DNA from: Treponema sp.
Lineage (GTDB): Bacteria; Spirochaetota; Spirochaetia; Treponematales; Treponemataceae
Reading direction: 5' to 3'
NCBI GenBank assembly: GCA_017449285.1
Contig: JAFSJX010000003.1
Location: forward strand, 62,001-126,000
Length of the DNA: 64,000 nucleotides
Part shown: positions 2,756 to 20,646 of the stretch, one piece after another
Numbering within the stretch: the first letter of the stretch is position 1
Layout: each line of letters opens with the position of its first letter
The notes under the pieces: generated by a model
Seen by the model: the letters and a program-made list of their open reading frames with translations, nothing else
Told to the model about the DNA's origin: nothing
The model's database searches: none
Translations under genes and position numbers: made by a program

Positions 2756-3586
2756 ATGGCTATCCTAAAATCTGTTGCCCTTGCGTTCGGTATGTTTTCT
2801 GCAGTTCCTGTGCCACGCGTTGAATGGAGCGAAAAGAATCTTCGCTATATGCTTTGTGCGTTTCCGTTGGTGGGGGCGGTGATTGGTGGCGTGACGATGG
2901 GCTTTTTTTTGCTTACGGCATTTTTTTGCAGACATGCGGATTTTTTGCCCCGGCTTTTGCCGCTCGCGCTCGTGCTGATTCCGATTGCGGTGACGGGCGG
3001 CATTCATCTGGACGGATTTATGGATACATGCGACGCGCTGGCAAGTCATGCTGACCGCGAAAAAAAACTTGCAATCTTGAAGGACAGTCATGCGGGGGCT
3101 TTTGCTGTTTTGAGGTGCGTACTGTATGTGCTGGCAGACTTTGCGCTTGCGACGGAATTTGTCAGGTTTTTGTTTGCGGACGGAGAGGTGGTTTCTATAG
3201 GTTTATTTCTGCGGGCAAAAGGGGGCGCAATCGTCTGTTTTGCGGCAGTTTTTGTGCAGAGCAGGCTTTTGAGCGCGTTTTCCGTGGCTACCTTTCCTAT
3301 TGCGAAAGACAGCGGACTGGTGCGGACGTTTTCTGATGCGAGTGCGAAGTGTGTTACGGCGGTTTGGTGCGCAGCATGGTTCGTGGCGATTTCTGCGGTT
3401 TTGGTGTGGTTCTCTCGGTGGAACGGAGTTTTTTCAGTGGGAACGATGCTGATAGTATTCGGAGGATATTTTTTGATGACGCGGCGGCATTTCGGCGGCA
3501 TTACGGGTGACACGGCGGGCTGGTTTGTGCAGATGGCGGAATTGTTGTGTCTTTTTGCGCTGATTGTTACAATGGAAGTGGTATGA
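2756..3586 (+). CDS. cobS: adenosylcobinamide-GDP ribazoletransferase (cobalamin synthase)
   Basis: CobS is the membrane enzyme that joins adenosylcobinamide-GDP to alpha-ribazole (or its phosphate) to make adenosylcobalamin (phosphate). The 276-residue sequence is rich in hydrophobic helices and holds the diagnostic acidic motif GGIHLDGFMDTCDAL (about residues 81-95) followed by KDSHAGAFAV. The start ATG 2756 lacks a ribosome-binding site but sits 6 bases after TATACT, so the gene may be expressed both by readthrough from cobU and from its own leaderless promoter. The stop overlaps the next ATG (ATGA). Confidence 0.94.
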   Translation: MAILKSVALAFGMFSAVPVPRVEWSEKNLRYMLCAFPLVGAVIGGVTMGFFLLTAFFCRHADFLPRLLPLALVLIPIAVTGGIHLDGFMDTCDALASHADREKKLAILKDSHAGAFAVLRCVLYVLADFALATEFVRFLFADGEVVSIGLFLRAKGGAIVCFAAVFVQSRLLSAFSVATFPIAKDSGLVRTFSDASAKCVTAVWCAAWFVAISAVLVWFSRWNGVFSVGTMLIVFGGYFLMTRRHFGGITGDTAGWFVQMAELLCLFALIVTMEVV

Positions 3587-4590
3587 TTCTGATTCTCGGT
3601 GGCGCACACAGCGGTCGGCATGCATTTTTTGATACACTTGGCATTACTGCTGAAGACTGCCGCATGGTTACGGCGGATGACGCGCATCGTTTTGCGGAGG
3701 AAAAAAAAGTCGCAACGCTTTCTTCTGTTTGTGTGCGGCTTTCGTCTTTTCGCGTGGTGATTGCGACGGAGATGGGGCTGGGAATTATTCCGCTTGAAAA
3801 AAAAGACCGTGTCAGGCGGGAAGAAAACGGTCGGCTGAATATCGCGCTTGCCTCGCTTTCTGACTGCGTTGTGCTGATGACGGCGGGAATTCCGCGCGTG
3901 ATAAAGGGAAATCTTTCTTCCACGCTCAAAAAAAAGACGCGCTATCTGATGGTGTTTCGTCACGGTGCGACAGAGGCGAATCTTTTAAGACGCTATGCGG
4001 GTGCGGGAACGGACATAGATTTGTGCGATGAGGGAAAAAAACAGGTGGAGCGGACAAAAAAATTGCTTACTTCGTATGCTGCGGAATTTCCGGTGCATTT
4101 GAAAAAATCACTTTTAGAGCCAGAAATTGTCTACGTCTCTCCGATGAGGCGGTGTGTGCAGACGGCAGAAATTCTCTATCCCCGCGCAAAAAAACAGATT
4201 GTTCCTGACTTCCGTGAGATGGATTTTGGTTTGTTTGAAAACCGTTCCGCAGATGAACTGCTTTCTGATGATTCGGTGCGCGACCTGTACCGGGAATTTA
4301 TTGACAGCGGGGGAACGATTTCCTGTCCGCCTTCGGTTCAGTCAGCGGGAGAAAGTGTCGCGCAGTTTTCGGCTCGGTCGGCTATGGCGTTCAGAAGAAT
4401 TCTGGCAGAGAAAGCATCGGGTCATAAGGAAAATGGGCTGGTTACGGTTGTGGCTCACGGGGGAACGCAAATGTCACTTTTCAGCCAATTCTGTGCGTGG
4501 ACGCTTGGCGATGATTTAGATGGAGCGAAAAATCCATACTTTGACTGGCAGACTGATTGCGGTGGTTTTCGGTTGGGAGCAGTAAAATGA
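3583..4590 (+). CDS. CobU-like domain fused to alpha-ribazole phosphatase (CobC-type)
   Basis: A 335-residue two-domain protein. Residues 1 to about 112 resemble CobU: a P-loop-like start LILGGAHSGRHAFF, and ATEMGLGIIPLEKKDR and AGIPRVIKGN matching CobU C-terminal blocks. The P-loop lacks the catalytic Lys-Ser/Thr pair (GRH in place of GKS/T), so kinase activity is doubtful. Residues from about 125 form a histidine phosphatase domain with the RHG motif in VFRHGATEANL and a second catalytic His in VVAHGGTQMS, as in CobC, which dephosphorylates alpha-ribazole phosphate or adenosylcobalamin phosphate. ATG 3583 overlaps the cobS stop. The phosphatase role fits the operon; the N-terminal domain may be regulatory or substrate-binding (inference). 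Confidence 0.85.
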   Translation: MILILGGAHSGRHAFFDTLGITAEDCRMVTADDAHRFAEEKKVATLSSVCVRLSSFRVVIATEMGLGIIPLEKKDRVRREENGRLNIALASLSDCVVLMTAGIPRVIKGNLSSTLKKKTRYLMVFRHGATEANLLRRYAGAGTDIDLCDEGKKQVERTKKLLTSYAAEFPVHLKKSLLEPEIVYVSPMRRCVQTAEILYPRAKKQIVPDFREMDFGLFENRSADELLSDDSVRDLYREFIDSGGTISCPPSVQSAGESVAQFSARSAMAFRRILAEKASGHKENGLVTVVAHGGTQMSLFSQFCAWTLGDDLDGAKNPYFDWQTDCGGFRLGAVK

Positions 4591-5639
4591 AATTTTTCCT
4601 GTTGTATCAACTTTTTCGGCTTCCCGCCGCATTTTTTTTGGATTTGATTTTGGGAGAGCCACGATGGATTTTGCATCCAGTTGTCATTTTCGGAAAGATG
4701 ATTTCGCACTTTGAACGACTTATCAGAAGCATTTTTCCTGCGACAAAGTGGGGCGAGCGTTTCGGTGGATTTTTTTTGGTTCTGATTATGTGCGTATATT
4801 CGTTTGCCGTGCCATTTCTTGTGCTGTACGGACTTTTTTACTGCGGACTTCGGTTTGACAACAAGATTCTGCTGGGCTTTGCCTACGGACTTGATGTGTT
4901 CTGGGGCTACCAATGTCTTGCGGCACGGAATCTGCGGGATGAGGCGGATAACGTGTATCTCAAAGTCAGCAATTCTTTGGCAGAGGGCAGGAAGGCGGTC
5001 GGCAGAATTGTCGGGCGTGATACTGATTCTCTTGACAAAAAAGGCGTGATAAAAGCCTGTGTGGAAACTGTTGCCGAAAGTACGACTGATGGCGTTGTTT
5101 CTCCGATGATTTTTTATGCGGCAGGAGGCGCACCGTTCGCGCTTTTGTTCAAGACAATCAACACGATGGACAGCATGATTGGCTACAAAAATGAACGCTA
5201 CCGCTATTTTGGAACGACGGCCGCACGTTTGGACGATATTGCAAATCTGATTGGCTCACGAGTTGCGGCATTGAGCATGATTGTCGCATCACTTTTTCTA
5301 TATATTCCGTCGATTTTCAGCCGATACGCCTTTCAGTACAACTTGATTCGCAGTGTGCGGACATTTTTGCGTGACCGTTACAAGCACGAAAGCCCCAACG
5401 CGGGGCAGACCGAAAGTGCCTGTGCGGGTGCGCTTTGCATTCAACTTGGTGGTGACGCCTATTACGGTGGCGTTCTGGAACGGAGACCCTATCTTGGCAG
5501 ACGACGGCGGGAAGCGGAAACAGAGGACATTCATCGTGCGGTCAAACTGATGTATGGCGCAAGCGTCATCTCGCTTATGCTGATTTTTATGGTCAAACTG
5601 CTGGCGATTCTGCACGTGTTTAATCCCGCATGGTTTTAG
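4587..5639 (+). CDS. cbiB: adenosylcobinamide-phosphate synthase
   Basis: CbiB (CobD in some nomenclatures) is the membrane protein that attaches aminopropanol (phosphate) to adenosylcobyric acid. The 350-residue sequence carries the N-terminal family signature DLILGEPRWILHPVVIFG, the central GRIVGRDTDSL and CVETVAESTTDGVVSP blocks, and several membrane segments. The start ATG 4587 overlaps the preceding stop (ATGA), which settles it over an in-frame ATG 30 bases upstream. Last gene of the cobalamin run; no clear terminator follows. Confidence 0.94.
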   Translation: MKFFLLYQLFRLPAAFFLDLILGEPRWILHPVVIFGKMISHFERLIRSIFPATKWGERFGGFFLVLIMCVYSFAVPFLVLYGLFYCGLRFDNKILLGFAYGLDVFWGYQCLAARNLRDEADNVYLKVSNSLAEGRKAVGRIVGRDTDSLDKKGVIKACVETVAESTTDGVVSPMIFYAAGGAPFALLFKTINTMDSMIGYKNERYRYFGTTAARLDDIANLIGSRVAALSMIVASLFLYIPSIFSRYAFQYNLIRSVRTFLRDRYKHESPNAGQTESACAGALCIQLGGDAYYGGVLERRPYLGRRRREAETEDIHRAVKLMYGASVISLMLIFMVKLLAILHVFNPAWF

Positions 5640-5679
5640 TCAGAATCTTTTTCGTGGGCGGACTGGTGTTTGCGTAAGG

Positions 5680-6465
5680 CTACCATTTGCGTAATACATC
5701 CACCACGTGCGAACTTGCGCCGAGCAGTTCCAGGCGTTCGCAGGTGGCAAGGTGGTAGTCAAGAAAATGCTGGAAGTCCGCCTCGCTCAATGCGTTCAGT
5801 TCACGCCTCATGTAGTCAGCCGCTCCGTCCGCCGCAAAAATTTTTACGCGTTCCAAATCCGCCTCTTCTGCAAGCGCATTGATGTCCTCCAGACGGAAAT
5901 AGGTGTACAATTGGTCATCATCTCCAGTCGTGTGAAAGTCTGCCGTCAGTTTTCCCTCCGCCATGACTTCGGCGATATGGTTCTGCTTAAAACAATAGGT
6001 GAGTACGCTGTATTCGTTCATCACGTAGGCACAGAAAATCAGTCCGCCGCGCCTTGTAATGCGTTTTGCCTCGCTCATCGCCTGCAAGCGGTCGTCCTTT
6101 GTGTGCAGGTGGTAGAGAGGACCAAAGACCAGCGTGATGTCAAAACTTTCGTCGTCCAGAAAAGACAGGTTCCGCGCGTCTCCCGGCCACAGGTTCACTT
6201 TTTCGTGCTTGCTTTCCAATACTGAAAGATTTTTTTGCACCAGTTCCACCGCCGTTACCGTATGGCCTTCCCGTGCCAATGCCACCGAGTACCGCCCCGT
6301 TCCCGCGCCGATGTCCGCAATCCGTGCTATTCCGTTTGTATCCGCCACAGCGGGAATAAAATCGTGAATGAATTTCATCGTCGTGGTAAATTCTACTTGT
6401 CCGTGGCGTGTTGTCAGGCGGTGGTCTTCATCAAATTTGTTGTAATAGCGTTCAAGGTTGGTCAT
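5680..6465 (-). CDS. class I SAM-dependent methyltransferase
   Basis: A 261-residue Rossmann-fold methyltransferase. The SAM-binding motif I is IADIGAGTGRYSVAL (about residues 40-54), followed by the acidic strand VTAVEL and the motif ITLVFGPLYHL. The C-terminal part is typical of small-molecule methyltransferases, and the substrate cannot be read from sequence. The start at MTNLERYYNKF is chosen because TATAAT ends 6 bases upstream, giving a leaderless start; an upstream in-frame ATG would lie inside the promoter. Divergent from the following outer-membrane-like gene. Confidence 0.85.
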   Translation of the reverse strand: MTNLERYYNKFDEDHRLTTRHGQVEFTTTMKFIHDFIPAVADTNGIARIADIGAGTGRYSVALAREGHTVTAVELVQKNLSVLESKHEKVNLWPGDARNLSFLDDESFDITLVFGPLYHLHTKDDRLQAMSEAKRITRRGGLIFCAYVMNEYSVLTYCFKQNHIAEVMAEGKLTADFHTTGDDDQLYTYFRLEDINALAEEADLERVKIFAADGAADYMRRELNALSEADFQHFLDYHLATCERLELLGASSHVVDVLRKW

Positions 6466-7310: not shown

Positions 7311-7891
7311 AAAAATCCAACCAGGAGATTCTTTCCACATACCCTGAGCCGCATTTTGCTCCAAAAGTCATACGTATGGGTATGGACGAAAAAACGCGGG
7401 TAACTGTTTCTGCGCGTCTGAATAAAAACCGAGTGTTTTTATTTGCGGCGGCAACAGTCTTTGCGCTGGCTCTTTGTGTTCCGATGATGAAGAGTTCCAT
7501 CAAAATGTCAGGAAACAAGCCATATATTGGCGTGAAGGGAAGCGGTCACCACCAAATCCGCCTGTACAAGCAGGACGGAGCGAAAGCGGTTCTCTTACAA
7601 AACGGAGAGACTGCAAAAGAAAACGACTTGGTTCAAATCGCCTATACGCCGGGGCCTTACAACTACGGTGTGATCTTTAGCGTTGACGGAAACGGAAATA
7701 TCACCCGGCATTTTCCCGATGCGTCATGGCAGGCGGAAAAACTGGAAAAAACTGGCGAGGAAGTTCCACTTTCTTTTTCGTATGAGCTGGATGACGCTCC
7801 AGAATACGAATGTTTTGTATTTGTCGCGTCAAAAAAGGAATTTGATTTTTCAGACATCGAAAACCTTGACAAACAAAGCCTGAGCGAATGA
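7298..7891 (+). CDS. single-pass membrane protein with DUF4384-like domain, anti-sigma-like
   Basis: A 197-residue protein with a likely TTG start. Residues 1-45 contain KKSNQEILSTYPEPHFAPKV, similar to the juxtamembrane part of anti-sigma-like proteins that sit beside caspase-like genes. One membrane helix follows (VFLFAAATVFALALCVPM). The outer domain has IRLYKQDGAKAVLLQNGE and YNYGVIFSVDGNGNITRHFP, matching the style of DUF4384 domains. The usual zinc-binding anti-sigma N-terminus is missing, possibly lost to a stop at 7274. It overlaps the next start by 4 bases (ATGA), so it once formed an operon with the caspase-like gene. Function is inferred from layout only. Confidence 0.55.
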   Translation: MAALKKSNQEILSTYPEPHFAPKVIRMGMDEKTRVTVSARLNKNRVFLFAAATVFALALCVPMMKSSIKMSGNKPYIGVKGSGHHQIRLYKQDGAKAVLLQNGETAKENDLVQIAYTPGPYNYGVIFSVDGNGNITRHFPDASWQAEKLEKTGEEVPLSFSYELDDAPEYECFVFVASKKEFDFSDIENLDKQSLSE

Positions 7892-8590
7892 AAAACTTTA
7901 CGGCGAAACATCTTTTATTTACAGCCATGCTCACTCTTTTTGCAAACGCACTGTTTGCGCAGAACGGAAGCGCAGGCATTGAGCGATACGGTCTTTACAT
8001 CGGTTCTAATGACGGCGGAAAAAAAACAGCAGCATCTTTTGTACGCGGGAACAGACGCAATCGCCTTCCAAAACATTATGACCGAGATTGGTGGCATTTC
8101 AAAATCAAACGGAATTCTGCTCCTTGACCCGACAAAAGACGATGTTGACAATGCCTTTAAGACCATTTCGGGCATGATGCAGAAAAAACACAAGGACGCA
8201 AAAAGATCCGAATTTGTCTTTTACTATTCGGGGCACTCCGACGCATTGAATGACTTGTCCTTTTTGCTGATAATATTTTTCATCGTCATCGCGGGGTTCA
8301 ACGTGAACAAGGGATTTTTGCTGAACCTGCCTTCAAAGGATAAGCCGATTGTGGTCAATACAAACGACATCTTGAAGTGCGAACTGGACGAGGGCGGGGC
8401 ATTGTTTTTGGACGGAAAGGAAACAAAAATCGAAGAACTGTCACAAAAAATCAGCGAAAAGATAAAAAGCCAGCCGAACATGACGTTTTTGCTTACGATA
8501 GCGCCCGAGACGCATTACCAGAAGGTGATTGACGTTGTTTCGACCATACGGACGCTTAACGTCGAGAATTTTTCTTTTAGAATGAGATAA
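7888..8590 (+). pseudogene. caspase-like (C14) N-terminal half fused in frame to ExbD, with an A8 frameshift
   Basis: The frame from ATG 7888 gives a signal peptide (ending NALFAQ) and GLYIGSNDGG, the first strand of caspase-like C14 peptidases. Reading then jumps frame in an A8 run (8019-8026). The second frame continues as YAGTDAIAFQNIMTEIGG, LLLDPTKDDVDNAF and FVFYYSGHSD, which contains the catalytic-His motif. Immediately after that the same frame reads LNDLSFLLIIFFIVIAG, the membrane start of ExbD, and runs through an ExbD periplasmic domain to the stop. The caspase Cys half and the ExbD N-terminus are absent. Loss of one A would join both frames. A deletion fusing two neighbours is the simplest reading. 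Confidence 0.75.
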
Positions 8591-8599
8591 GGGAGGCGT

Positions 8600-8862
8600 A
8601 TGATTACACGGAGACAAAAAAGAAGGCGGCCAAGTATAGCGACTTCCTCAATGTCGGACATCGGTTTTTTGCTTTTGATTTTCATCATGCTGATTGCCTT
8701 GATGAACCAGAGGTATGAAGAAAAAATAAACTATTCTGAGAGTACCGTTTTGGAGCGAACCGATGCAGACGAAAATTTTGAGATATGTACATTAACGGCG
8801 TGACCTCAGTTTTGCAGATCTTGCAGCATCGTGTGGTCAGTTTTGTGGCAAAGGAAAAGTAA
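8600..8862 (+). pseudogene. second ExbD/TolR-like gene, frameshifted and shortened
   Basis: ATG 8600 follows a good ribosome site (GGGAGGCGT). The product starts SSMSDIGFLLLIFIMLIAL, an ExbD membrane helix, and reads on to DENFEI. Then the frame changes (near 8789): the remainder, YINGVTSVLQILQHRVVSFVAKEK, is in another frame and ends at 8862. The two parts together are far shorter than the usual 130-140 residues, so interior sequence has been lost. ExbD proteins transmit proton-motive force with ExbB and TonB. No ExbB is present here. Confidence 0.65.
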
Positions 8863-8863
8863 T

Positions 8864-9285
8864 ATGAGCGCAGAAAAAATAGCAACTTATTCGGGGTTCT
8901 GGCGGATACTGATTTTTGTATTCGCACTTCTTTTGCACGTGGCGACGATTTGTTTTTTCAGCATACAACAAAAAGAAGAAGCGGTTGAGACCATAGATTT
9001 TCGCGAGACTGAGGTTTTTAAATTGGTTGACGTGCAGGAATATATAAAGCCCCTCGTTCAGGAAAAGACCTCCGTTGTCGTGAACCAGCCCAAGGCATCC
9101 GACTTGAACTGTTCATCGATAAAAATGGTGCGATAAAAAATATCAAAGTGCTGAAAGACCCCGGACACGGATTTGCGGAAGCGGCGGTGGCGGCTCTTAC
9201 GGGCATAACGTGCATTCCTGCCAAGGCAAACGAAAAAAACTGCGCCGTCCGCTACCGATACCCGATAAAATTTACGCTCAATTGA
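8864..9285 (+). pseudogene. TonB-like protein, split by a frameshift
   Basis: ATG 8864 (AAGGAAAAG upstream) starts a protein with the single N-terminal helix of TonB (FWRILIFVFALLLHVATICFF) and a short periplasmic linker. That frame ends at 9136. The C-terminal energy-transduction domain continues in another frame from about 9106: ELFIDKNGAIKNIKVLKD, then EAAVAALTGITCIPAKA and RYPIKFTLN, stop at 9283-9285. The linker is very short and the frames differ, so the gene is broken by a small deletion or by shift. Confidence 0.7.
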
Positions 9286-9287
9286 CA

Positions 9288-10283
9288 CTAAAATTTTTCT
9301 ACAGACCAACGTGCGTGTTCGTTTCCCAGCGTTTTTGCAAGATGCGGAAGAACTGCCGCCATCTGCTCATCAAGCAAGTACGGAAAATTGACCACAAGCA
9401 TGCCGCTTCCGTAGAGTTTCGCAAGCCCTGTCTTTTCTTCAGGCGACTGCACTGCAAGTTGTATGTCCAGCATATTTTGCTCGGTGGCAGTGCGCTGGGC
9501 GCAAGAAATAATCTGCTGTTTCATGCGAGAAGTTTCCGTGTGGCGATGTTCCAGAAGCGGATACCATAGCGCAAGGATTCCGCCCGCCCATTTTTGGTGT
9601 ACGGTGCAAATGGTGTCCGCGCAGTCAGAAAAATCCTGTGCTTCTTCAAAACTGGGGTCAATCAGCGCCACGCCACGCTTGGTCTGGGGCGGGGTAAGCG
9701 CACGCAGCATTTCATATCCGTTACGAAAATGGATTTGCGGCGTGACGTATGCTTTTGTGTGCGCGGGCGATTGTGTTTGCGTCGTGGCGGGCGTTTCGTC
9801 TGCAAGCGGCTGTGTGTGCGCGCTCGTGCCGTGTGCAAGAGGCGGCGTTTTCATGTTGCGGTGCAGCACTTCAATCCCCTGCGGGTGCAGTTCGGAAAGA
9901 ATCAGTTTGTCCGCTGGACGCAGAAAACACCGCGCGATTTCGGGTGATCCGGGATACTTTTGTTCCGTAGCGTATGTGCGGCACAGGGTGAGGTAGGGCG
10001 CAATAATGTTGGTCATTGCGCCTGTCGAAATGACCTGTGGCGATTCAAGTTTGCTTAAGTCAAACACTTCTGGCTGCAAAAGTCGTCGGATGCCGCTTTC
10101 TGCCTCGTTCGTCTTTTGCGCGCGGCAGTCGGTCAAATCGTACACGCCGAATCCCGCATGGGTGTCGTACACGGTAAACGGCTTGTCCTTCTGCAAAAGC
10201 CGCTGCAAAATCAGTGTCAGCGTGAGGTGCTTCAAGATGTCGGCGTGGTTTCCCGCGTGGTAGATGTGTTCGTAACTTAACAT
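9288..10283 (-). CDS. rlmJ: 23S rRNA (adenine-N6)-methyltransferase RlmJ family
   Basis: RlmJ methylates A2030 of 23S rRNA in E. coli. The 331-residue protein begins MLSYEHIYHAGNHADILKH, the family hallmark, then VYDTHAGFGVYDL (SAM motif) and the catalytic-motif variant DPSFE in place of the usual DPPYE. A 35-residue Thr/Pro/His-rich insert (around PLAHGTSAHTQ...TKAYVTP) interrupts the domain. ATG 10283 is chosen because it overlaps the nadE stop (TGATG); a GTG one codon upstream is possible. Translationally coupled to nadE. Confidence 0.88.
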   Translation of the reverse strand: MLSYEHIYHAGNHADILKHLTLTLILQRLLQKDKPFTVYDTHAGFGVYDLTDCRAQKTNEAESGIRRLLQPEVFDLSKLESPQVISTGAMTNIIAPYLTLCRTYATEQKYPGSPEIARCFLRPADKLILSELHPQGIEVLHRNMKTPPLAHGTSAHTQPLADETPATTQTQSPAHTKAYVTPQIHFRNGYEMLRALTPPQTKRGVALIDPSFEEAQDFSDCADTICTVHQKWAGGILALWYPLLEHRHTETSRMKQQIISCAQRTATEQNMLDIQLAVQSPEEKTGLAKLYGSGMLVVNFPYLLDEQMAAVLPHLAKTLGNEHARWSVEKF

Positions 10284-12283
10284 CACAATGCTTCCGCTTC
10301 GTCAACCCACAGCCGTGCGCTGGCATCGCTGGGCATGCGCCAGTCACCGCGTGGACTCAAGTTTACCGTACCGACTTTTGCGCCGTCGGGGAGACAACTG
10401 CGCTTGAACTGCTGGGCGAAGAACCGTTTGTAGAATGACACGAGCCATTTTTTTATCGTTGCCTTGTCGTAGACTGCCTGTCCGCCCTGTGTCTGTGGTT
10501 GCGTGATGAACGCCTGTTCAGCAAGGTAGAAAATCTTTGAGGGCGAAAAGCCGAAGCGCAGCACGTAGTACAAAAAAAAGTCATGCAGTTCATACGGGCC
10601 TACAATGTCTTCTGTTTTCTGCGAGATATTTTTGCCATCGGGTGGAAGCAGTTCCGGGCTTACCGGCGTGTCAAGAATGTTCCGCAAAACTTCGGCGAGC
10701 GTGTTCCGTCCTTTTTCTTCCGCATCATCGCTGAACCAATTGACCAAGTGGCGCACCAAAGTTTTGGGAATCGAGGCATTTACGCCGTACATGCTCATGT
10801 GGTCGCCGTTGTAGGTCGCCCACCCAAGAGCCAGTTCGCTCAAATCTCCCGTTCCAATTACAATGCCGTTGTGCTTGTTCGCAATGTCCATCAGCACTTG
10901 CGTCCGTTCCCGCGCCTGACAATTCTCATAGGTCACGTCATGTACCGATTCGTCCTGACCGATGTCCTTGAAATGCTGGCGGACGGCATTGGCAATCGGA
11001 ATTTCAAGCAGTGTCGCGCCCGTTTCCTTTGCCAAAAAACAGGCATTGTTGTAGGTGCGGTCGGTCGTGCCAAAGCAGGGCATCGTCACCGCGCGGATTT
11101 TTTCTGCGGGGATGCCGCACAGCATAAAGGCGCGAACTGTAACAAGCAGGGCGAGTGTACTGTCCAGACCGCCGCTCAGTCCAATCACTGCGCACTGCGA
11201 GTGTATGTGGCGGAGCCTTTTTGCCAATCCCTGCGCCTGTAACTCAATGACCGCGCGGCATCGTTCTGCCCGCTCAGTCTTTCCGCTCGGCACAAAGGGG
11301 TGGGGCGCGACCGTGCGCAAAAGCGTTTGCCTCTGTGCTGCGGAATCCTTTTTCTGCACGGCATTTTTTCTGCTCCCCAAATCAATGGTAATCGTCACAA
11401 AATCATCTTTCTCATTCCGCTGGCAGTCGGCAAAGGTGGTCGTCCGCTTCCGTTCCTGTGCGAGCCGTTCCAAATCAAAGTCTGCGTAGGTTATGCCGCT
11501 AGAAAACAAATCTGACTGAGCCAGAATCGTGCCGTTTTCCGCCAGAATGTTGTGTGCGGCAAATACCAAATCCGTCGTGCTTTCGCCGTTTCCGCAATCC
11601 GCGTAGAGATATGCCGTCATCGTCTTTGCGCTTTGGGCAGACACGAGCGTCCTCCGATAATCCGCCTTTCCGATAATCTCATTGCTCGCACTCAAATTTG
11701 CGATGACCGTTGCCCCCGAAAGAGAAGCATGGGTTGAGGGCGAGAGCGGTACCCACACGTCCTCGCAGATTTCTGTTCCCAGCAGAAAAAGCGGATTTGA
11801 CTTGTCGGCAATCAGAATGTTCGTTCCGAACGGAACTGCCGCATTGTTTTCATCTATATAAATTGATTTTATTTCATCTCGGTCAGCGGGCGCAAAATGT
11901 CTCCGCTCGTAAAATTCGTTGTAGGTGGGAATGTATGTTTTGGGTACGAGCGCAAGAATGTTTCCCCGGTGCAGGATTGCCGCACAGTTGTAGGTTGCCC
12001 CGTTATCCACAAGCGGTAAACCCACTAAAATGAGCGCATTCAGTTCCGCCGTTTCGGCACAAATCCGCTTGAGCGCAGAAAGTGCGCCGTCCAAAAGCGT
12101 GCGCTGGAGAAAAAGGTCTCCGCAGGTGTAGGCGGTAATGCACAGTTCTGGAAAGACAATCAGTTGTGCGCCGCCCGCCGCGGCCTTTTTTGCCAAGTCA
12201 ATAATTGCGTCTGCGTTCGCATTGCAGTCTGCCACCACAACGTCAGGACTAGCACATGCGGCGCGAAAAAATCCGTAGTTCAT
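10283..12283 (-). CDS. nadE: glutamine-dependent NAD+ synthetase
   Basis: NadE converts nicotinate adenine dinucleotide to NAD+ with ATP and ammonia from glutamine. The 666-residue protein has the two-domain layout of the glutamine-dependent class. The N-terminal nitrilase domain has the catalytic triad Glu (VFPELCITAY), Lys (VPKTYIPTYNEFYE) and Cys (GTEICEDVWVP). The C-terminal synthetase domain has the ATP-binding loop GLSGGLDSTLAL. The start at MNYGFFRAACASPD is set by a leaderless promoter, TACAAT ending 6 bases before ATG 12283. Confidence 0.95.
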   Translation of the reverse strand: MNYGFFRAACASPDVVVADCNANADAIIDLAKKAAAGGAQLIVFPELCITAYTCGDLFLQRTLLDGALSALKRICAETAELNALILVGLPLVDNGATYNCAAILHRGNILALVPKTYIPTYNEFYERRHFAPADRDEIKSIYIDENNAAVPFGTNILIADKSNPLFLLGTEICEDVWVPLSPSTHASLSGATVIANLSASNEIIGKADYRRTLVSAQSAKTMTAYLYADCGNGESTTDLVFAAHNILAENGTILAQSDLFSSGITYADFDLERLAQERKRTTTFADCQRNEKDDFVTITIDLGSRKNAVQKKDSAAQRQTLLRTVAPHPFVPSGKTERAERCRAVIELQAQGLAKRLRHIHSQCAVIGLSGGLDSTLALLVTVRAFMLCGIPAEKIRAVTMPCFGTTDRTYNNACFLAKETGATLLEIPIANAVRQHFKDIGQDESVHDVTYENCQARERTQVLMDIANKHNGIVIGTGDLSELALGWATYNGDHMSMYGVNASIPKTLVRHLVNWFSDDAEEKGRNTLAEVLRNILDTPVSPELLPPDGKNISQKTEDIVGPYELHDFFLYYVLRFGFSPSKIFYLAEQAFITQPQTQGGQAVYDKATIKKWLVSFYKRFFAQQFKRSCLPDGAKVGTVNLSPRGDWRMPSDASARLWVDEAEAL

Positions 12284-12381: not shown

Positions 12382-14340
12382 TTAAGCACAGTCCTTTGCA
12401 CTGATATGCGCTTCCCACATCGACTTGTACAGTCCGCCTTTTGCAAGAAGTTCTTCGTGCGTGCCTTCAGAATCAACTACGCCGTTTTTGATGACTACGA
12501 TTTTGTCCGCGTCCTGAATTGTAGAAAGCCTGTGCGCAATTACAATCAGAGTCTTGCCATGCACGAGTCGGGCGACGCTCTGCTGGATTATTGCTTCATT
12601 TTCGGGGTCGGTATAGGCGGTGGCTTCGTCAAGAATTACGATTGGCGCATTTTTCATCATGGCACGGGCAATTGCAATTCGCTGGCGCTCGCCGCCGCTC
12701 AAATGCGCTCCGCTTCCGCCGACGATTGTGTCAAAGCCGTTTTCAAGCGACATTATGAAGTCGTAGCAACCGCTTTGTTTTGCAATTTCTTCTACTTCGC
12801 TGTCCGTTGCATCAGGTTTTCCAAGCCTTATGTTTTCGCGCACGCTAAGGTCAAAGAGGAAATTGTCCTGGCTTACATAAGCGACGCGGCGGTTGTATCC
12901 TTCAAGCGAAAGGTCTTTGATGTTCACTCCGCCGATTTCGACCGAGCCAGAATCAACATCCCAGAAAGAGGCGATGAGCCGGGCAATCGTTGACTTCCCG
13001 CTTCCAGAAGGACCAACAAGAGCGGTGTACGAGCCGGAAGGAAGGGAAAGATTTATGCCGTGAAGGATTTGCCGTTCGCTTCGCGAACTTACCGAGTTTC
13101 CGTTGGAAACTCGCATCGGGGGCGTTGCGGGGGGGTCCCCCGCAGAAGGGGTAGCGGAAGAACCAACAAAGCGGAGAGAATCGTCACTGCTTGCAGGGGC
13201 GATTCGTGTAGCGACTTGGTTCTGGAGCGAGGGGAAGGCTTTCCCCTCCTTATGGTAACTGAATTTTACGTCTTTGAGTTCGATTGCATTGTCTTTCGGT
13301 GTTGCCTTGTCTTTTTCAGGGCGGTCAAGTTCCTGCATGTCCATAATTGCCCCGACCTCGCCGAAAATTACACCCGCCTTTGCGATGTCATCATGGTAAG
13401 AATAGACCACAAGGAGCGGCTGGATAACGCTCATCGAAAGAATGATGATTGTGATGAAGTTTACCGCAGAAAGTGTGCCGTGCAGGAAGAAAAATCCGCC
13501 GATTGGAAGGACGGCAAGAAGTGTTGAGGGAGCAATTACGAATGCAATCGTAAACGGCCAGATGCAGTCGCGCATCCATTCAACATAGCAGTCAGAGCCT
13601 TCGCGGGCGGCGACAACGAATTTTTCGTAAGATGATTTTGATTTTCCGAACGCCTTGATGACTTCGATTCCGTTGATGTATTCCACTGCCGTGTCGTTCA
13701 GAATTTTTGTCTTTTCGATTGCGTTCTGAAAGCGTTCCGTCATGTTGCGCATCATAAAACAGGCGGAAATCATGCCGATTGGAAGGGTAATCAGCGAGGC
13801 AAATCCCATGCGGGCATCGATGTAGAAAAGATAGATGAACATCACGAGAGGCAGCAGGAGGTTGCTCGTCCATTCGGGAACGATGTGCGCGAGCGTCGTC
13901 TCCATGCTGTCAATGCGTTCAATAAGGATGTTTTTGAGACTGCCCGAAGAATGGTCGAGGACACTTCCCAGCGGAACACGGGCAAGCTTGTCGCAGAGAT
14001 TTTTCCTGATGTTTGCAAGCACGTTGAATGTCGCCACATGGCTCATCGTCGTGGAAACCGCATGAAAAAGAGCGTTTCCGGCCCAGAACAGCGCCACGAT
14101 TCCAGACTCACGAAGGTAAACATTCCACTCGCGCACGCCGCCCAAAAGTTTTTTTACGATGTCCGCTATCAGCACATAAGGTGCAAGTGAACATGCCACG
14201 CACAAAAGCGCAAAAAATACGCTCGCCCAGTACATCGGACGTTTTTCGCCCGCAAAGGTAAAAATCCATGAAAGAAGAGACTTTTTCTTAGATTTACCGG
14301 TACAACATTCGGACTTTTTGTTATTATCAGACATATACAA
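12382..14340 (-). CDS. ABC transporter, fused permease and ATPase, exporter fold
   Basis: A 652-residue half-transporter: six-helix membrane domain (residues about 35-320) followed by an ATPase with Walker A GPSGSGKSTIARL, the signature LSGGERQRIAIARAMM, Walker B IVILDEATAYTDPENE and the H-loop IAHRLSTI. The membrane domain (SSGSLKNILIERIDSMET) resembles iron-regulated exporter-fold transporters such as YbtP/IrtA, some of which import siderophores; substrate is not proven. A roughly 58-residue stretch between FSYHK and RQILHG is an inserted palindromic element (see 13072-13250). Expression is from TTGACA-N17-TATTAT with the operator at 14346-14361. AAGGG gives a good ribosome site. Only one half-transporter is present, so a homodimer is likely. 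Confidence 0.85.
   Translation of the reverse strand: MYMSDNNKKSECCTGKSKKKSLLSWIFTFAGEKRPMYWASVFFALLCVACSLAPYVLIADIVKKLLGGVREWNVYLRESGIVALFWAGNALFHAVSTTMSHVATFNVLANIRKNLCDKLARVPLGSVLDHSSGSLKNILIERIDSMETTLAHIVPEWTSNLLLPLVMFIYLFYIDARMGFASLITLPIGMISACFMMRNMTERFQNAIEKTKILNDTAVEYINGIEVIKAFGKSKSSYEKFVVAAREGSDCYVEWMRDCIWPFTIAFVIAPSTLLAVLPIGGFFFLHGTLSAVNFITIIILSMSVIQPLLVVYSYHDDIAKAGVIFGEVGAIMDMQELDRPEKDKATPKDNAIELKDVKFSYHKEGKAFPSLQNQVATRIAPASSDDSLRFVGSSATPSAGDPPATPPMRVSNGNSVSSRSERQILHGINLSLPSGSYTALVGPSGSGKSTIARLIASFWDVDSGSVEIGGVNIKDLSLEGYNRRVAYVSQDNFLFDLSVRENIRLGKPDATDSEVEEIAKQSGCYDFIMSLENGFDTIVGGSGAHLSGGERQRIAIARAMMKNAPIVILDEATAYTDPENEAIIQQSVARLVHGKTLIVIAHRLSTIQDADKIVVIKNGVVDSEGTHEELLAKGGLYKSMWEAHISAKDCA
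13072..13250 (-). repeat. palindromic element inserted in frame in the ABC transporter gene
   Basis: Within about 180 bases lie several perfect inverted repeats: GTTCGC/GCGAAC (13074-13088), GAGTTTCC/GGAAACTC (13094-13112), TGCGGGGG/CCCCCGCA (13126-13144) and GAGGGGAA/TTCCCCTC (13229-13248). A larger nested pair is GAACCAA (13160-13166) with TTGGTTC (13216-13222) enclosing GAATCG (13178-13183) with CGATTC (13200-13205). The element keeps the reading frame and adds a Ser/Ala/Pro-rich peptide at the beginning of the ATPase domain. It resembles in principle the in-frame palindromic elements known from Rickettsia. Confidence 0.75.
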
Positions 14341-14345
14341 CCCTT

Positions 14346-14361
14346 GTTAGCAATATCTAAC
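14346..14361 (-). promoter_or_regulatory. operator GTTAG-N6-CTAAC at the ABC transporter promoter
   Basis: The perfect inverted repeat GTTAG-CAATAT-CTAAC lies just downstream of the minus-strand -10, where a bound repressor would block transcription. It is one of six sites of this form between 14.3 and 19.8 kb. Confidence 0.75.
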
Positions 14362-14453: not shown

Positions 14454-15142
<689 letters not shown>

Positions 15143-15917: not shown

Positions 15918-15933
15918 GTTAGCAATAGATAAT
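15918..15933 (-). promoter_or_regulatory. imperfect operator at the methyltransferase promoter
   Basis: GTTAG-CAATAG-ATAAT has one perfect half-site and one degenerate half-site. It overlaps the minus-strand -35 of the methyltransferase gene. Confidence 0.5.
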
Positions 15934-15951: not shown

Positions 15952-15993
15952 TTGACTGAAATTAGGAGTTGTATTATATTAGTAATAACTAAC
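15952..15993 (+). promoter_or_regulatory. promoter and operator of the P1B-ATPase operon
   Basis: TTGACT (15952-15957), a 17-base spacer and TATATT (15975-15980). The operator ATTAG-TAATAA-CTAAC (15978-15993) overlaps the -10 and the probable start point. A leader of about 65 bases ends in a strong ribosome site, TGGAGGAATTAAC, before ATG 16054. Confidence 0.75.
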
Positions 15994-16053
15994 ACAAGTT
16001 GCTCGTGTAAATTTATCGTTATTGTTAAATTACAAAAGTTTGGAGGAATTAAC

Positions 16054-16290
16054 ATGGCTTTTGCTAACAAATGGGTCGCTTTTGGTGTCGGAGTTGTCGC
16101 GGGCGTTGCGGCAGTTTCACTTGTAAAAAATCCTGCTTTCAAAAAGGCTTGTGCGGCGGTTGTCGGAAAGGGTTTGCAGCTCAAGGACGAGGCGGCGGCT
16201 TTTGCTGAAAGCGTAAAGGAAGATGCTCAGGACATCGTAGCAGAGGCAAAATACAACAACCAGAAAAAGACTGAGGAAGCGAAGGCATAA
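16054..16290 (+). CDS. small DUF6110-like membrane protein, candidate ferrosome component
   Basis: A 78-residue protein: one hydrophobic segment (WVAFGVGVVAGVAAVSLV, residues 7-24) with a GxxxG helix-packing motif, followed by a charged Lys/Glu/Ala-rich amphipathic tail. It fits the small DUF6110-type proteins found beside P1B-ATPases in anaerobes. In ferrosome (fez) clusters, small GxxxG-containing membrane proteins accompany the ATPase FezB. The next gene begins 3 bases after its stop. No metal ligands are visible, so a structural membrane role is more likely than metal binding (inference). Confidence 0.65.
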   Translation: MAFANKWVAFGVGVVAGVAAVSLVKNPAFKKACAAVVGKGLQLKDEAAAFAESVKEDAQDIVAEAKYNNQKKTEEAKA

Positions 16291-16293
16291 TCA

Positions 16294-18381
16294 GTGACGG
16301 TCACAATTCATCACAGCTTGCCGGGGAGAATCCGCGTTCATTATGATTTGCACGAAGTTTCTCCGAGGCAGGCGGTTCTCGCCCAGAGCCTGATTGCCGT
16401 TCAAGAAGGAATCACGGATATTTCCGTCAACACCAACATCGGCTCTTATCTTATCCTTTTTAATTCTTCTATTATATCTCAACCTCAAATCGAAAATCTT
16501 TTTAAGGCTCTCGGTGCAAAATATCTTGAGGACGAAAAGCTGCTTGAAGCCGTAGCACAGATTCCAATTACAGAAAGCATAATGAGCATTTTCGTATCAA
16601 CGATGATAACTCACTTTGCGAAAAAACTTCTTCCGTTTCCAATCAGAAGAATTCTTCTATATAAAAACATCCTTCCACGCATTTTTGAGGCAATCGGAAT
16701 CTTCACAAAGGAAGGAAAATTTTTCTCAACGCAGATGCTTGATGCAACTGCACTTACTGTCGCGGCTCTCACAGGCAATACGAATACCGCAAGTTCAATT
16801 TCAACGCTCCTGCAAATGGGCGAGGACATTGAGGATGTCACGAAACGCACTTCTTACGGAAATCTTGCGCACAAACTGTTGATTTCTGATGAGCCGGCTC
16901 ACATTATTGAAAATGGTGAAGAAAAGACAATTCCGGCCGCTTCACTCAAAAAAGACGACCTTGTAATCGTCCGCGAAGGAAGTCTGATTCCTTGTGACGG
17001 CTCTGTAGAAAAGGGCGAGGGCATGGTAAATCAGGCAAGCATCACGGGCGAGTCGCTTCCTGTCGAAAAAAAGGCGGGAAGCGGTGTCTTTGCCGGAACG
17101 ATTTTGAGCGAGGGCGAGCTTGTAATCCGCACCCGCTCGACAGGCCAGGACACGAAAGTCCAGAACATAATTCAGATGATAGACTGCTCCCAGAATCTCA
17201 AGGCAAATGCTCAGAGGCGTTCGGAACTTCTTGCAGAAAAAATCGTGCCGCTTAATTTTGCGCTTGCAGGTCTCACATGGCTTTTCACTCGAAATCTGAC
17301 CAAAACAATGTCTACGCTCATGGTGGATTATTCATGTGCGATGAAACTCGCCGCCCCAATTGCAGTTCTTTCCGCCATGAAGGAAGCGACAACACTAGGA
17401 ATCAGCGTTAAGGGCGGAAAATATCTTGAAAAGGCGGCAGAAGCAAATACCGTCATCTTCGACAAGACAGGCACGCTCACTTTTGCAAATCCTGTGGTCG
17501 AAAAAATCTATCCGATGAAAGGCTTTGGCGAGGATTTCGTCTTACAGACTGCAGCCTGCCTTGAAGAGCATTTCCCGCATCCGCTCGGTCGTGCCGTTGT
17601 CGCTTTTGCTTCTGAAAAAGGTCTTTTACATCCCGAAAAACACACCAAAGTAGAATATATTGTCGCACACGGAATCGCATCGACTCTTGATGAAAAGAAA
17701 GTCAGAATCGGAAGCGCGCATTTTATCTTTGATGATGAAAAAATTCCGTTTGATGAGTGCGTAAAAAACATTCAGAAAGAATCGTTGGAGACAGGGCAGT
17801 CACTTCTTTATCTTTCTTATGACGGAAAACTTGCCGGAGTTCTTACAGTCGGAGACCCTGTGCGCCCCGAAGCACGCGAAGTCATTCAGAAGCTCAGGAA
17901 CACAGGAATCAGACGCTGCGTTATGATTACGGGCGACACGGAAGGAGCCGCCAGAAAGATTGCCGAAAGTGCGGGGCTGGATTTTTACTATTCACAGGCT
18001 CTGCCGGAAGACAAAGTTTCGCTGATAGAAAAAGAAAAGTCTCTCGGAAAGGTAATCATGCTTGGCGACGGAATCAATGACGCTCCAGCGTTGAGCTGTG
18101 CTGATGTCGGAATTGCAATCGAAGGAAGCTCTTCAATCGCAAGCGACACGGCTGACATCGTTCTGACCGAAGGCGGCTTGAACAATGTTGTCACGACGCG
18201 GCTTTTGGGACAGGAATTGATTTCAAAAATCAACATGAACAATCTTCTGATAATCGAGCTGAATTCGGCGTTGCTTTTGCTGGGCGTGTTCGGGCTTATC
18301 AGTCCGCAGATTGCCGCAATTCTTCACAATTCGGCGACGGTAGGAATCAGCGTCAAGGCAATGCAGCCGATTTTGAAGTAG
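16294..18381 (+). CDS. P1B-type heavy-metal ATPase with SCA membrane motif (FezB-like)
   Basis: A 695-residue metal-transport ATPase. Catalytic features: TGES at 251-254, phosphorylation site D390 in DKTGTLT, the P1B HP pair at H429-P430, and GDGINDAPAL from 591. In the membrane metal site the usual CPC is replaced by S347-C348-A349 (DYSCAMKLAAP), which I associate with the P1B-6 group containing FezB, the ATPase of ferrosomes. The N-terminal 70 residues (HSLPGRIRVHY) form an HMA2-like domain without the CxxC metal site. Translation starts at GTG 16294, preceded by GAAGG. Substrate iron is inferred from group and context. Confidence 0.85.
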   Translation: MTVTIHHSLPGRIRVHYDLHEVSPRQAVLAQSLIAVQEGITDISVNTNIGSYLILFNSSIISQPQIENLFKALGAKYLEDEKLLEAVAQIPITESIMSIFVSTMITHFAKKLLPFPIRRILLYKNILPRIFEAIGIFTKEGKFFSTQMLDATALTVAALTGNTNTASSISTLLQMGEDIEDVTKRTSYGNLAHKLLISDEPAHIIENGEEKTIPAASLKKDDLVIVREGSLIPCDGSVEKGEGMVNQASITGESLPVEKKAGSGVFAGTILSEGELVIRTRSTGQDTKVQNIIQMIDCSQNLKANAQRRSELLAEKIVPLNFALAGLTWLFTRNLTKTMSTLMVDYSCAMKLAAPIAVLSAMKEATTLGISVKGGKYLEKAAEANTVIFDKTGTLTFANPVVEKIYPMKGFGEDFVLQTAACLEEHFPHPLGRAVVAFASEKGLLHPEKHTKVEYIVAHGIASTLDEKKVRIGSAHFIFDDEKIPFDECVKNIQKESLETGQSLLYLSYDGKLAGVLTVGDPVRPEAREVIQKLRNTGIRRCVMITGDTEGAARKIAESAGLDFYYSQALPEDKVSLIEKEKSLGKVIMLGDGINDAPALSCADVGIAIEGSSSIASDTADIVLTEGGLNNVVTTRLLGQELISKINMNNLLIIELNSALLLLGVFGLISPQIAAILHNSATVGISVKAMQPILK

Positions 18382-18389
18382 GATACCTT

Positions 18390-18686
18390 ATGATTACAAG
18401 TTTTTTTCCAGGAAGAGTGCGATTGCGTGCCCCGATTTTTAAGGAAGCGGATTTAGTTGAAAAGGCACGCTTGATTCTGGGCAAAAGTGATGCCGTCAAG
18501 AAGATTGAGAACAATTTCCTTACGGGAAGCGTCCTGATTGAATATTACCCCGAAAAAGTGCCGATGAAAAAACTGCTTCCCATGCAGGAATTTTTCGCAA
18601 ATCTTGCAAAGGAAGCGCAGCATTTTGACGGCTCAAACCGCCAGAAAATTCTTTCGATGCTCGATGAACTCGAAGGAATATTTTAA
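18390..18686 (+). CDS. HMA2-like small protein, candidate ferrosome component
   Basis: A 98-residue soluble-looking protein with the motif SFFPGRVRLRAP that parallels SLPGRIRVHY at the N-terminus of the neighbouring ATPase, so both carry an HMA2-type ferredoxin-like fold. No CxxC is present, so classical copper-chaperone activity is unlikely. The C-terminal half (KKLLPMQEFFANLAKEA) is helical. It starts 8 bases after the ATPase stop and ends the operon; the flavodoxin gene converges from the other side with no clear terminator between. Confidence 0.7.
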   Translation: MITSFFPGRVRLRAPIFKEADLVEKARLILGKSDAVKKIENNFLTGSVLIEYYPEKVPMKKLLPMQEFFANLAKEAQHFDGSNRQKILSMLDELEGIF

Positions 18687-18688: not shown

Positions 18689-19096
18689 TCACTCACCCGC
18701 AAGTTTTTTTACGGCTTCCAAGTCCGCGTCCTCTGGCGTAAGGTGAGCCTTTACGCTTCCCACAAGTGTTGCGCCGACTCCAGATACGCGGTCGCTCCAA
18801 TCCGAAATCCACTGACCATCGCCCCAGTCATAAGAGCCGAACAAGCCGACTTTTTTGCCGTTCAGACTGCCTTCGATTCCAGAAAAGAAAGTTTCCATTG
18901 AATCTTCAAGTTGCTCTGCTCCCATTGCGGGGCTTCCCAGAAGAATCAGGTCTGCCGAAAGCGTTTCTGCTGAATCAGCGCTGTCCGCCGTCGTAATGCT
19001 GACCTCTCGGCCCGCCGCTTTAGCTCCTTCGGCTGCCGCATTTGCAAGCATTTCTGTGTTTCCTGTTGTTGATGCGTAAACGATTGCTACTTTCAT
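18689..19096 (-). CDS. flavodoxin
   Basis: A 135-residue flavodoxin, an FMN electron carrier that replaces ferredoxin when iron is short. The FMN phosphate loop is YASTTGNTEMLA (residues about 7-18). The flavin-contacting loops are LLGSPAMGAEQLED and FGSYDWGDGQW, typical of short-chain flavodoxins. The start overlaps the DUF3793 stop (ATGA) and AAGGAG lies upstream, so both are one operon under the double operator at 19.75 kb. Placement fits an iron-sparing response. Confidence 0.92.
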   Translation of the reverse strand: MKVAIVYASTTGNTEMLANAAAEGAKAAGREVSITTADSADSAETLSADLILLGSPAMGAEQLEDSMETFFSGIEGSLNGKKVGLFGSYDWGDGQWISDWSDRVSGVGATLVGSVKAHLTPEDADLEAVKKLAGE

Positions 19097-19671
19097 TTCG
19101 TAACTCCTTTTTGATGATATTTTTTTGTCGCCAAAGGAACAGAAAGCCCAGAGGCGAGCAATTTCATACAAGTTTCAGTGCAGTTTCTGTACAGATTCAT
19201 ACGGCGGATTGCGCTCTCCTTGTCGCCGTAGACTTTCCAGATTCCCGAATATTTAAAATTTTCCGCTCCATGCTCTTCAAAGCCGACAACATCTTCAAGA
19301 GGATAACCAAGGAAAACTCCGACCTCATGCGGAAAATTCTCGTTTACTGAAAGCCTGTGCAAAAGTTCGGCAAGAACGCAGGAAAGTCCCTTTTCAACGC
19401 AATAACCTTTTGAAAGAAGATAGGTACGGTTCTGCGGATTTTTGAGGATTTTTTCAAGAAGTTTTTTATCGTAGACGAAAAGCAGAAATCGACCGTCAGA
19501 TTTTTTTACGGGCACGAAAAATTTCTTTTCCTTTGAGAACTGCCATTGCCACTGATGAATCTTCTTACATCCATCGGTAAAGTTTTTATCAGACATCGAA
19601 AAAAGACAGGCACTCTTTATTCCGCAGAGAGCGGGCGCACCACAATGAATAATCGTCTCGTCAAAACCCAT
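19093..19671 (-). CDS. DUF3793 family protein
   Basis: A 192-residue cytosolic protein of unknown function with the DUF3793 landmarks: CGAPALCGIKSACLF near the N-terminus, FPHEVGVFLGYPLEDVVGF in the middle, and SGIWKVYGDKESA late. Such genes are often found near flavodoxin or iron-uptake genes in anaerobes. Here it heads an operon with flavodoxin. GGGAG is the ribosome site. Its roughly 95-base leader contains a strong hairpin followed by a T-run (19684-19733), so expression may be attenuated in addition to operator control. Confidence 0.85.
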   Translation of the reverse strand: MGFDETIIHCGAPALCGIKSACLFSMSDKNFTDGCKKIHQWQWQFSKEKKFFVPVKKSDGRFLLFVYDKKLLEKILKNPQNRTYLLSKGYCVEKGLSCVLAELLHRLSVNENFPHEVGVFLGYPLEDVVGFEEHGAENFKYSGIWKVYGDKESAIRRMNLYRNCTETCMKLLASGLSVPLATKKYHQKGVTK

Positions 19672-19746: not shown

Positions 19747-19762
19747 GTTAGGTATGTCTAAC
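19747..19762 (-). promoter_or_regulatory. operator A upstream of DUF3793-flavodoxin
   Basis: Perfect inverted repeat GTTAG-GTATGT-CTAAC, just downstream of the minus-strand promoter. Confidence 0.75.
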
Positions 19763-19769: not shown

Positions 19770-19801
19770 GTTAGTTTATGCTAACTTTTATTTTATGTCA
19801 A
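19770..19801 (-). promoter_or_regulatory. promoter and operator B of DUF3793-flavodoxin
   Basis: Minus strand TTGACA (19801-19796), a 17-base spacer and TAAACT (19778-19773). Operator GTTAG-TTTATG-CTAAC (19770-19785) covers the -10. The two operators are centred 23 bases apart, about two helical turns. Confidence 0.75.
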
Positions 19802-19823: not shown

Positions 19824-19854
19824 TTGACCAAATGTTTCTGCATTGTGCTATACT
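19824..19854 (+). promoter_or_regulatory. promoter of the ZIP transporter gene (leaderless type)
   Basis: TTGACC (19824-19829) and an extended -10 TGC-TATACT (19846-19854), which ends 6 bases before ATG 19861. There is no ribosome site. Confidence 0.65.
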
Positions 19855-19860
19855 CTTTCT

Positions 19861-20646
19861 ATGAGTATCACATTTTGGGGACTTTTGATTCCTTTTTTTG
19901 GAACGGTATTTGGTGCGGGCTGTGTGTTTTTTTTGAAGCGCGAAATGAACGACAGCGTTCAACGTGCCTTGCTCGGATTTGCGGCGGGCGTGATGGTTGC
20001 CGCCTCGGTGTGGTCGCTTCTTATTCCTGCGATGAATATGTCGGATTCGCTGGGACGGCTTGCATTTCTTCCCGCACTGGTAGGATTTGGTCTTGGCGTA
20101 GCATTTCTTTTTTTGCTCGACAAAATTACGCCGCATCTGCATGCAATAGCAGAAAAACCGGAAGGCCCAAAATCTTCAATAAATAAAATCAGCCGCACGA
20201 TGATGCTCGTTTTTGCCGTTACGCTGCATAATATTCCAGAGGGAATGGCAGTCGGTGTTGTTTTTGCAAGTTTTTTGAACGGCGGAGCGATTTCATCGGC
20301 TGATGCAATTGCCCTGTCTCTCGGAATCGCCATTCAGAATTTTCCGGAAGGTGCGATTATTTCCATGCCGCTCCGTTCAGAAGGAAACAGCAAACTCCGC
20401 TCATTTTTGTACGGTACGCTTTCGGGCGCAGTGGAGCCTGTTGCCGCCGTCCTCACGATTCTCCTCACTTCGCTTGTCCTGCCGTTTTTGCCATACCTGC
20501 TTTCGTTTGCGGCGGGTGCAATGGTCTACGTAGTCATTGAAGAACTTCTGCCCGAAGCCACCCGCGAAGAAAAAACCGACATTTGCACGATTGGCTTTGC
20601 ACTGGGATTTGCGTTGATGATGGTGCTTGATGTGGCATTGGGATAG
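19861..20646 (+). CDS. ZIP family divalent metal transporter
   Basis: A 261-residue inner-membrane transporter of the ZIP family, which brings zinc, iron or manganese into the cytoplasm. About eight helices are visible. The metal-site signatures are HNIPEGMAVG on helix IV and QNFPEGAIISMPL on helix V, as in ZupT/GufA-type proteins. VYVVIEELLPEA lies near the C-terminus. It sits beside the operator-controlled metal locus, although its own promoter carries no GTTAG-N6-CTAAC site; the nearest is 76 bases upstream and belongs to the opposite strand. Start is fixed by the leaderless promoter. Confidence 0.9.
   Translation: MSITFWGLLIPFFGTVFGAGCVFFLKREMNDSVQRALLGFAAGVMVAASVWSLLIPAMNMSDSLGRLAFLPALVGFGLGVAFLFLLDKITPHLHAIAEKPEGPKSSINKISRTMMLVFAVTLHNIPEGMAVGVVFASFLNGGAISSADAIALSLGIAIQNFPEGAIISMPLRSEGNSKLRSFLYGTLSGAVEPVAAVLTILLTSLVLPFLPYLLSFAAGAMVYVVIEELLPEATREEKTDICTIGFALGFALMMVLDVALG

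Follow-up and report, generated by a model that had tools for sequence, protein, structure and literature searches.

Ferrosomes are iron-storage organelles demonstrated so far in very few bacteria, and a recent review poses their wider occurrence as an open question (PMC12574912). In this study, the question was raised for a spirochaete by three adjacent genes in a 64,000-nt stretch of a Treponema sp. genome (contig JAFSJX010000003.1, positions 62,001 to 126,000, forward strand; the whole stretch is referred to as the window), which a sequence-only reading had proposed to be a ferrosome cluster. FezA and FezB are both required for ferrosomes and are Fur-repressed (PMC12574912). A literature search combining ferrosome with spirochaete or Treponema returned no paper joining them; primary ferrosome surveys lay outside this search and may already include spirochaetes.

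The three genes were found to be close-packed on the forward strand at window positions 16054 to 18686, with intergenic gaps of 3 and 8 nt, and the three-gene operon first described was confirmed. The first ORF (16054 to 16290), preceded by GGAGG, encodes a DUF6110-like protein of 78 aa; the second (16294 to 18381), with a GTG start 3 nt past the preceding stop codon, encodes a P1B-6-type ATPase of 695 aa; and the third (18390 to 18686), starting 8 nt past the ATPase stop codon, encodes an HMA_2 protein of 98 aa. A putative sigma-70-like promoter, TTGACT-17 bp-TATATT (15952 to 15980, forward strand), matched the consensus at 10 of 12 positions; matches this good are common by chance, and its location before the operon is fitting. 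Position 15952, from which the cluster had been counted originally, is the start of the -35 hexamer.

Pfam and NCBIfam assigned the ATPase to the heavy-metal P1B-ATPases and to nothing finer. In transmembrane segment 4 (TM4), S347-C348-A349 occupies the place of CPC, exactly as had been read from the sequence; TM6 carries LHN (residues 677-679), and the N-terminus is HMA_2-like with PGRIR. Scanning of genome contigs gave at least 574 relatives, and 80 loci were taken for neighbourhood analysis. Homologues from the host genus, the 80 genome contigs, and plasmids shared SC[AV] in TM4 and LHN in TM6. In the alignment, D[YF]SCA was seen in TM4 of the P1B-6 rows, and LHN was kept across these rows and missing from the Cu/Ag and Zn/Cd rows. 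A conserved HN motif in TM6 is the defining mark of P1B6 pumps (PMC9374683).

A maximum-likelihood tree was constructed with the host's CopA-like and Cd/Zn-like pumps, SilP, CadA, and others, leaving out experimentally proven FezB; the relatives among the matches listed include no known ferrosome maker. The window ATPase fell inside a P1B-6 clade of 29 rows (support 100/99), with the clostridial relatives in its sister part, and Cu/Ag, Zn/Cd/Co, and DUF1490-linked CtpC-like pumps each formed a separate group. The kinship proposed for the ATPase was borne out at the level of the class: it is a P1B-6 pump, having HN in TM6, SCA rather than CPC in TM4, and a place in the tree separate from the P1B-1, -2, and -4 pumps, and the copper, Zn/Cd/Co, and CtpC-like classes were ruled out by tree and motifs together. 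A grouping with copper or manganese exporters, named beforehand as the outcome that would speak against the proposal, was thus looked for and not seen. A sequence search of the PDB with the ATPase retrieved CopA/ZntA/Kdp-type and more distant pumps only, with no P1B-6 entry. We regard the protein as a candidate FezB-like pump.

Two divergent pumps were observed on plasmids in the same survey. A Bosea plasmid (L123, 2590-5297) encodes a divergent P1B-type ATPase whose TM4 site reads AGACG; its gene lies between a ferric-reductase-like gene upstream and a VIT1/CCC1 transporter gene downstream, and the pump may represent a further P1B type that handles iron. The P-type ATPase of a Methylobacterium plasmid (L131, 1045-3498) is very divergent, with ADLGTGIR in TM4, and its long branch (86/65) attached to the tree on the P1B-6 side.

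The 78-aa protein was predicted to have a single TM helix (residues 6-24) bearing G13-V-V-A-G17 and a long charged tail. In an alignment with homologues from several phyla, G13 and G17 of the GxxxG motif were invariant in 25 of 25 sequences, as were E56 and D60. Its description as a GxxxG, DUF6110-like membrane protein held, with Pfam scores slightly below the cut-offs for both DUF6110 (PF19605; 22.5 bits, gathering cut-off 26) and DUF1490 (22.7 bits, cut-off 28.4). Since the window protein is under the cut-off while 24 of the 25 aligned homologues matched DUF6110 at E ≤ 0.01 (best E 3.5e-41), it is named DUF6110-like here. Its predicted structure was of low confidence (pLDDT 70.6, pTM 0.31) and gives a two-helix sketch at most.

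By using an HMM built from this protein, a homologue was detected directly upstream of the ATPase in 77 of the 80 loci; in the three exceptions, the contigs start inside or just before the ATPase gene. The same HMM detected no homologue in 20 control loci around CopA/ZntA-type pumps. As the gene pair is kept in at least 77 loci, the observation is far beyond chance. A small membrane partner in the same operon, as expected of FezA, is present here in the form of a single TM helix with GxxxG encoded directly upstream of the pump, and the protein is considered a candidate FezA-like partner on the basis of its sequence.

In the small-protein gene of another locus (L033 of genome G021, approximately 4725-4950, reverse-complemented), an in-frame TGA was observed at a conserved Cys position. 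Selenocysteine was considered for this codon and rejected; only class II tRNA look-alikes fitted the tRNA-Sec model, and ARAGORN called these Leu/Ser. Because no tRNA-Sec was found and the frame is intact in a close relative (L195, G123), a nonsense change or an assembly error is likelier than selenocysteine.

The small protein also allows a different reading, that of a PacL-type effluxosome, in which the DUF6110 protein would gather P1B-6 pumps into plasma-membrane clusters that export excess Fe(II) from the cell, with no internal compartment. DUF1490/PacL proteins cluster Zn and Cd pumps into efflux platforms rather than organelles, and a GxxG motif is needed for the clustering (PMC13043812, PMC9374683). 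The window protein is about as similar to DUF1490 as to DUF6110, and the same platform role has been proposed for DUF6110 proteins with P1B6 pumps (PMC9374683). Against this reading, its C-terminus, KYNNQKKTEEAKA, is without a His/Asp motif, that is, without the C-terminal metal-binding motif of PacL, and the CtpC-like pumps, which have CPC, fall into a clade of their own. Evidence from the operators also bears on it (see below).

The third protein scored 33 bits against HMA_2 (PF19991; cut-off 30), and the family was matched by 17 of 18 aligned orthologues. It contains PGRVR, repeating the PGRxR of the ATPase N-terminus. It had been described as a small HMA2-like protein lacking CxxC and likened to the HMA-type membrane proteins of fez clusters; the HMA_2 assignment and the lack of CxxC stood, and a membrane location did not, for no membrane segment was predicted and the protein appears to be soluble. 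The structural model was confident (pLDDT 92.3) and HMA-like, and the nearest PDB folds found with Foldseek were metal-binding HMA domains, e.g., MerP and CopP, at E above 0.01. Within the 80 loci, stand-alone HMA_2 genes were confined to those of spirochaetes and Deferribacterota; none was detected in the clostridial loci. The protein is a candidate metal donor or regulator of the pump.

Genes next to the operon point to iron. A short-chain flavodoxin gene (18689 to 19171, reverse strand; Pfam and NCBIfam) is the convergent neighbour, and a DUF3793 gene (19093 to 19671, reverse strand; Pfam PF12672, 159.9 bits) lies in the same operon as the flavodoxin gene; both had been named as neighbours beforehand, and Pfam agreed. 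Across the operators described below, a gene for a ZIP-family metal transporter (19843 to 20646, forward strand; Pfam PF02535, 91.4 bits) diverges from DUF3793-flavodoxin. On the other side of the operon, an ABC half-transporter is encoded at 12382 to 14340 (reverse strand).

Among the 80 loci, feoA and/or feoB were present within 6 kb in 25, compared with 0 of the 20 CopA/ZntA control loci (one-sided Fisher p 0.0015, to be taken as indicative, because the controls were all from spirochaetes and the loci are mutually related). By way of a chance yardstick, any particular locus of a 3-Mb genome should fall in a 14-kb interval with a probability of about 0.5%. Other recurrent neighbours were flavodoxins (14 loci), DtxR-family regulators (12), and DUF3793 proteins (10), none of which occurred in the controls. 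In two congeners, the gene right after the operon is the first of feoA-feoA-feoB; a third congener has feoA-feoA-feoB upstream, and then, in this order, a DtxR-type regulator, DUF3793, flavodoxin, and the operon. An apparent TGA in the feoB match of the window's genome was dismissed, being outside the open FeoB frame. Absence of ferritin was likewise dropped as indirect evidence; ferritin-family matches were present in this genome and in most relatives, so the operon need not be its only iron store. In a spirochaete of another family (L035 of genome G036, 7312-10960, reverse-complemented), the operon is closely followed by NifD/NifK/NifH-like genes, and palindrome-like sites occur near the NifH-like one.

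Common functions of P1B pumps are export and the metallation of exported proteins. A pump that moves Fe(II) to the periplasm, either to metallate exported proteins or to balance iron, with no storage, would fit this general role. The tally of neighbour families, however, showed no exported iron-protein gene to be consistently linked, and the FezB-type pumps of C. difficile store iron (PMC12574912), which make periplasmic delivery very improbable.

The promoter region contains a palindrome, ATTAGTAATAACTAAC (15978 to 15993, forward strand), which overlaps the -10 box and is exact to GTTAGYNNNNRCTAAY read on the reverse strand. Upstream of the -35 hexamer, the whole-genome scan gave a second operator-like site, GTTAGCAATAGATAAT (15918 to 15933, forward strand), with one mismatch to GTTAGYNNNNRCTAAY; the repeated operator reported earlier is accordingly one strong palindrome and a weaker copy. 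Between the DUF3793 and ZIP genes, an operator-like site, GTTAGGTATGTCTAAC (19747 to 19762, forward strand), was read in the sequence, and the whole-genome scan gave an exact operator, GTTAGTTTATGCTAAC (19770 to 19785, forward strand), upstream of both DUF3793-flavodoxin and the divergent ZIP gene. Near-exact operators are located at 14346-14361 and 14489-14504, upstream of the ABC half-transporter gene in the window.

Exact matches to GTTAGYnnnnRCTAAY occurred at four places in the 3.2-Mb genome, namely this operon, feoA1A2B, DUF3793-flavodoxin, and an ABC half-transporter. With up to 2 mismatches allowed, 18 of 28 non-clostridial loci had the palindrome in the 250 nt preceding the first gene, whereas the expectation derived from dinucleotide shuffles was 0.66. 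It was not over-represented genome-wide, where a reversed control pattern had more near-matches, so only its positions are informative. The link to iron, which the sequence-only reading had offered as an inference, now has independent support from the feoAB linkage across phyla and from the operator shared with the feoAB genes of the same genome. ABC half-transporters were also observed to recur under the feo/operon palindrome in several treponemes (L176, 3547-5380; L030, 7502-11105, reverse-complemented), and these may be an iron- or siderophore-linked pair.

These positions also bear on the export platform. The operator is common to the operon, feoAB, and flavodoxin, and an iron exporter made together with an iron importer would be futile; the shared operator therefore argues against plain iron export, and we consider a PacL-type effluxosome unlikely.

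The genome of the window has one DtxR-family gene and one Fur-family gene, and the repressor acting at the operator is probably the single DtxR-family protein. TroR of T. denticola is an unlikely model for it, since the TroR operator, centred on TTTTGATATATCAAAA (PMC2628430), is unlike GTTAGYnnnnRCTAAY. DtxR-family regulators can respond to Mn, and TroR responds to both Mn and Fe (PMC2628430); in addition, Mn is imported by some FeoB systems (PMC11651100), and a ZIP-family gene is present at the shared operator region. It might thus be argued that the substrate is a divalent metal other than iron (Mn or Zn) and that the operon is part of a regulon for divalent metals in general. Such a role is quite unlikely, as an operator shared with feoAB and flavodoxin indicates iron, and the tree places the ATPase apart from the Zn/Cd/Co and CtpC-like pumps.

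Of 296 spirochaete genomes, 29 were found to encode the pump; most of these belong to the window's family, and the distribution has gaps. T. bryantii, T. parvum, and T. socranskii also have the operon. One carrier genome matched the published tro-promoter oligonucleotide of T. denticola ATCC 35405 (PMC2628430) at 78 of 78 bases. The operon is complete in this genome, and the small-protein orthologue scored 29.5 bits against DUF6110, over the cut-off of 26. The palindrome was absent at the T. denticola locus, indicating that regulation differs between lineages. In one congener (L201 of genome G191, 2114-6437), the operon looks inactivated, the ATPase being split by approximately 2 kb with a transposase-like ORF on the opposite strand. 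Larger clusters were found on plasmids of Azospirillum, where a P1B-6 pump with HMA_2 and YtxH-like proteins lies beside an iron ABC transporter, and of Arcobacter, where a P1B-6 pump with small proteins has a DUF2202 (ferritin-like) protein and TonB receptors nearby.

Taken together, gene content, the P1B-6 clade, the near-invariant partner gene, feo linkage, and the shared operator make a ferrosome cluster the best reading of the locus from sequence; the operon is probably a fez-type iron-storage system to which an HMA_2 gene is added and whose operator differs. At low iron, a metal-dependent repressor would leave the palindrome overlapping the -10 box, and the pump would be produced alongside FeoAB, which imports ferrous iron, flavodoxin, and further products of low-iron genes. 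By analogy to its DUF1490 relatives and to FezA, the GxxxG protein would cluster and stabilise the P1B-6-ATPase in a membrane patch that gives rise to an internal vesicle. When iron returns, the ATPase would pump Fe(II) from the cytosol into this vesicle, the ferrosome, and the HMA_2-type N-terminal region of the ATPase and the soluble HMA_2 protein may present metal to the pump or regulate it. We infer every step after the shared operator.

The chances appear about even that treponemes, including the periodontal species T. denticola, build ferrosomes with this three-gene variant, with a soluble HMA_2 donor of their own and, in the window's lineage, a DtxR-type regulon rather than Fur. If so, it would be the first time that an iron-storage organelle is demonstrated in a spirochaete. 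The operon is intact in the genome that matches T. denticola ATCC 35405, a culturable strain, so cultured cells can be used to test the claim. What was a guess from one sequence has become a testable claim, that of an iron-regulon-linked P1B-6/DUF6110 operon conserved in treponemes. Furthermore, about one third of the 80 sampled loci adjoin feo genes, which suggests that the many DUF6110-P1B-6 pairs of gut Firmicutes and other phyla, published as possible efflux platforms, are iron systems.

One of the closest known systems is the ferrosome operon of C. difficile, where fezAB corresponds to CD630_05910-05920 (PMC11651100). Both iron limitation and loss of fur induce these genes, and Feo proteins, fldX, and zupT rise with them (PMC6311696). 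Like fezXAB of C. difficile (PMC11533511), the window operon combines a P-type ATPase and a small protein. Flavodoxin and ZIP genes lie at the shared operators of the window, and the genome's feoAB carries the operator as well; their C. difficile counterparts belong to the low-iron regulon. The two differ in that C. difficile uses Fur, whereas a different palindrome, probably of DtxR type, is found here; in addition, the window operon has the extra stand-alone HMA_2 gene and no fezX equivalent was identified, as compared by published description rather than by sequence. The fez cluster of R. palustris has six genes, RPA2333-2338 (PMC12016538). The Azospirillum cluster (L116) resembles the window operon in joining a P1B-6 pump with HMA_2-type and GxxxG/YtxH-type small proteins, and its gene number recalls the six genes of R. 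palustris (compared by description only), while the window operon has three.

In having a small TM protein with a Gly motif adjoining a P1B pump with HN in TM6, the operon is also similar to the mycobacterial PacL-CtpC effluxosome. Unlike the window pump, however, CtpC-like pumps carry CPC and form a separate clade, and PacL-CtpC exports Zn/Cd, not iron. DUF6110-P1B6 gene pairs, mainly in Firmicutes, have been noted previously (PMC9374683). The window operon belongs to these pairs by ATPase clade and gene order, and differs from the others in the added downstream HMA_2 gene, which was observed here in spirochaete and Deferribacterota loci only.
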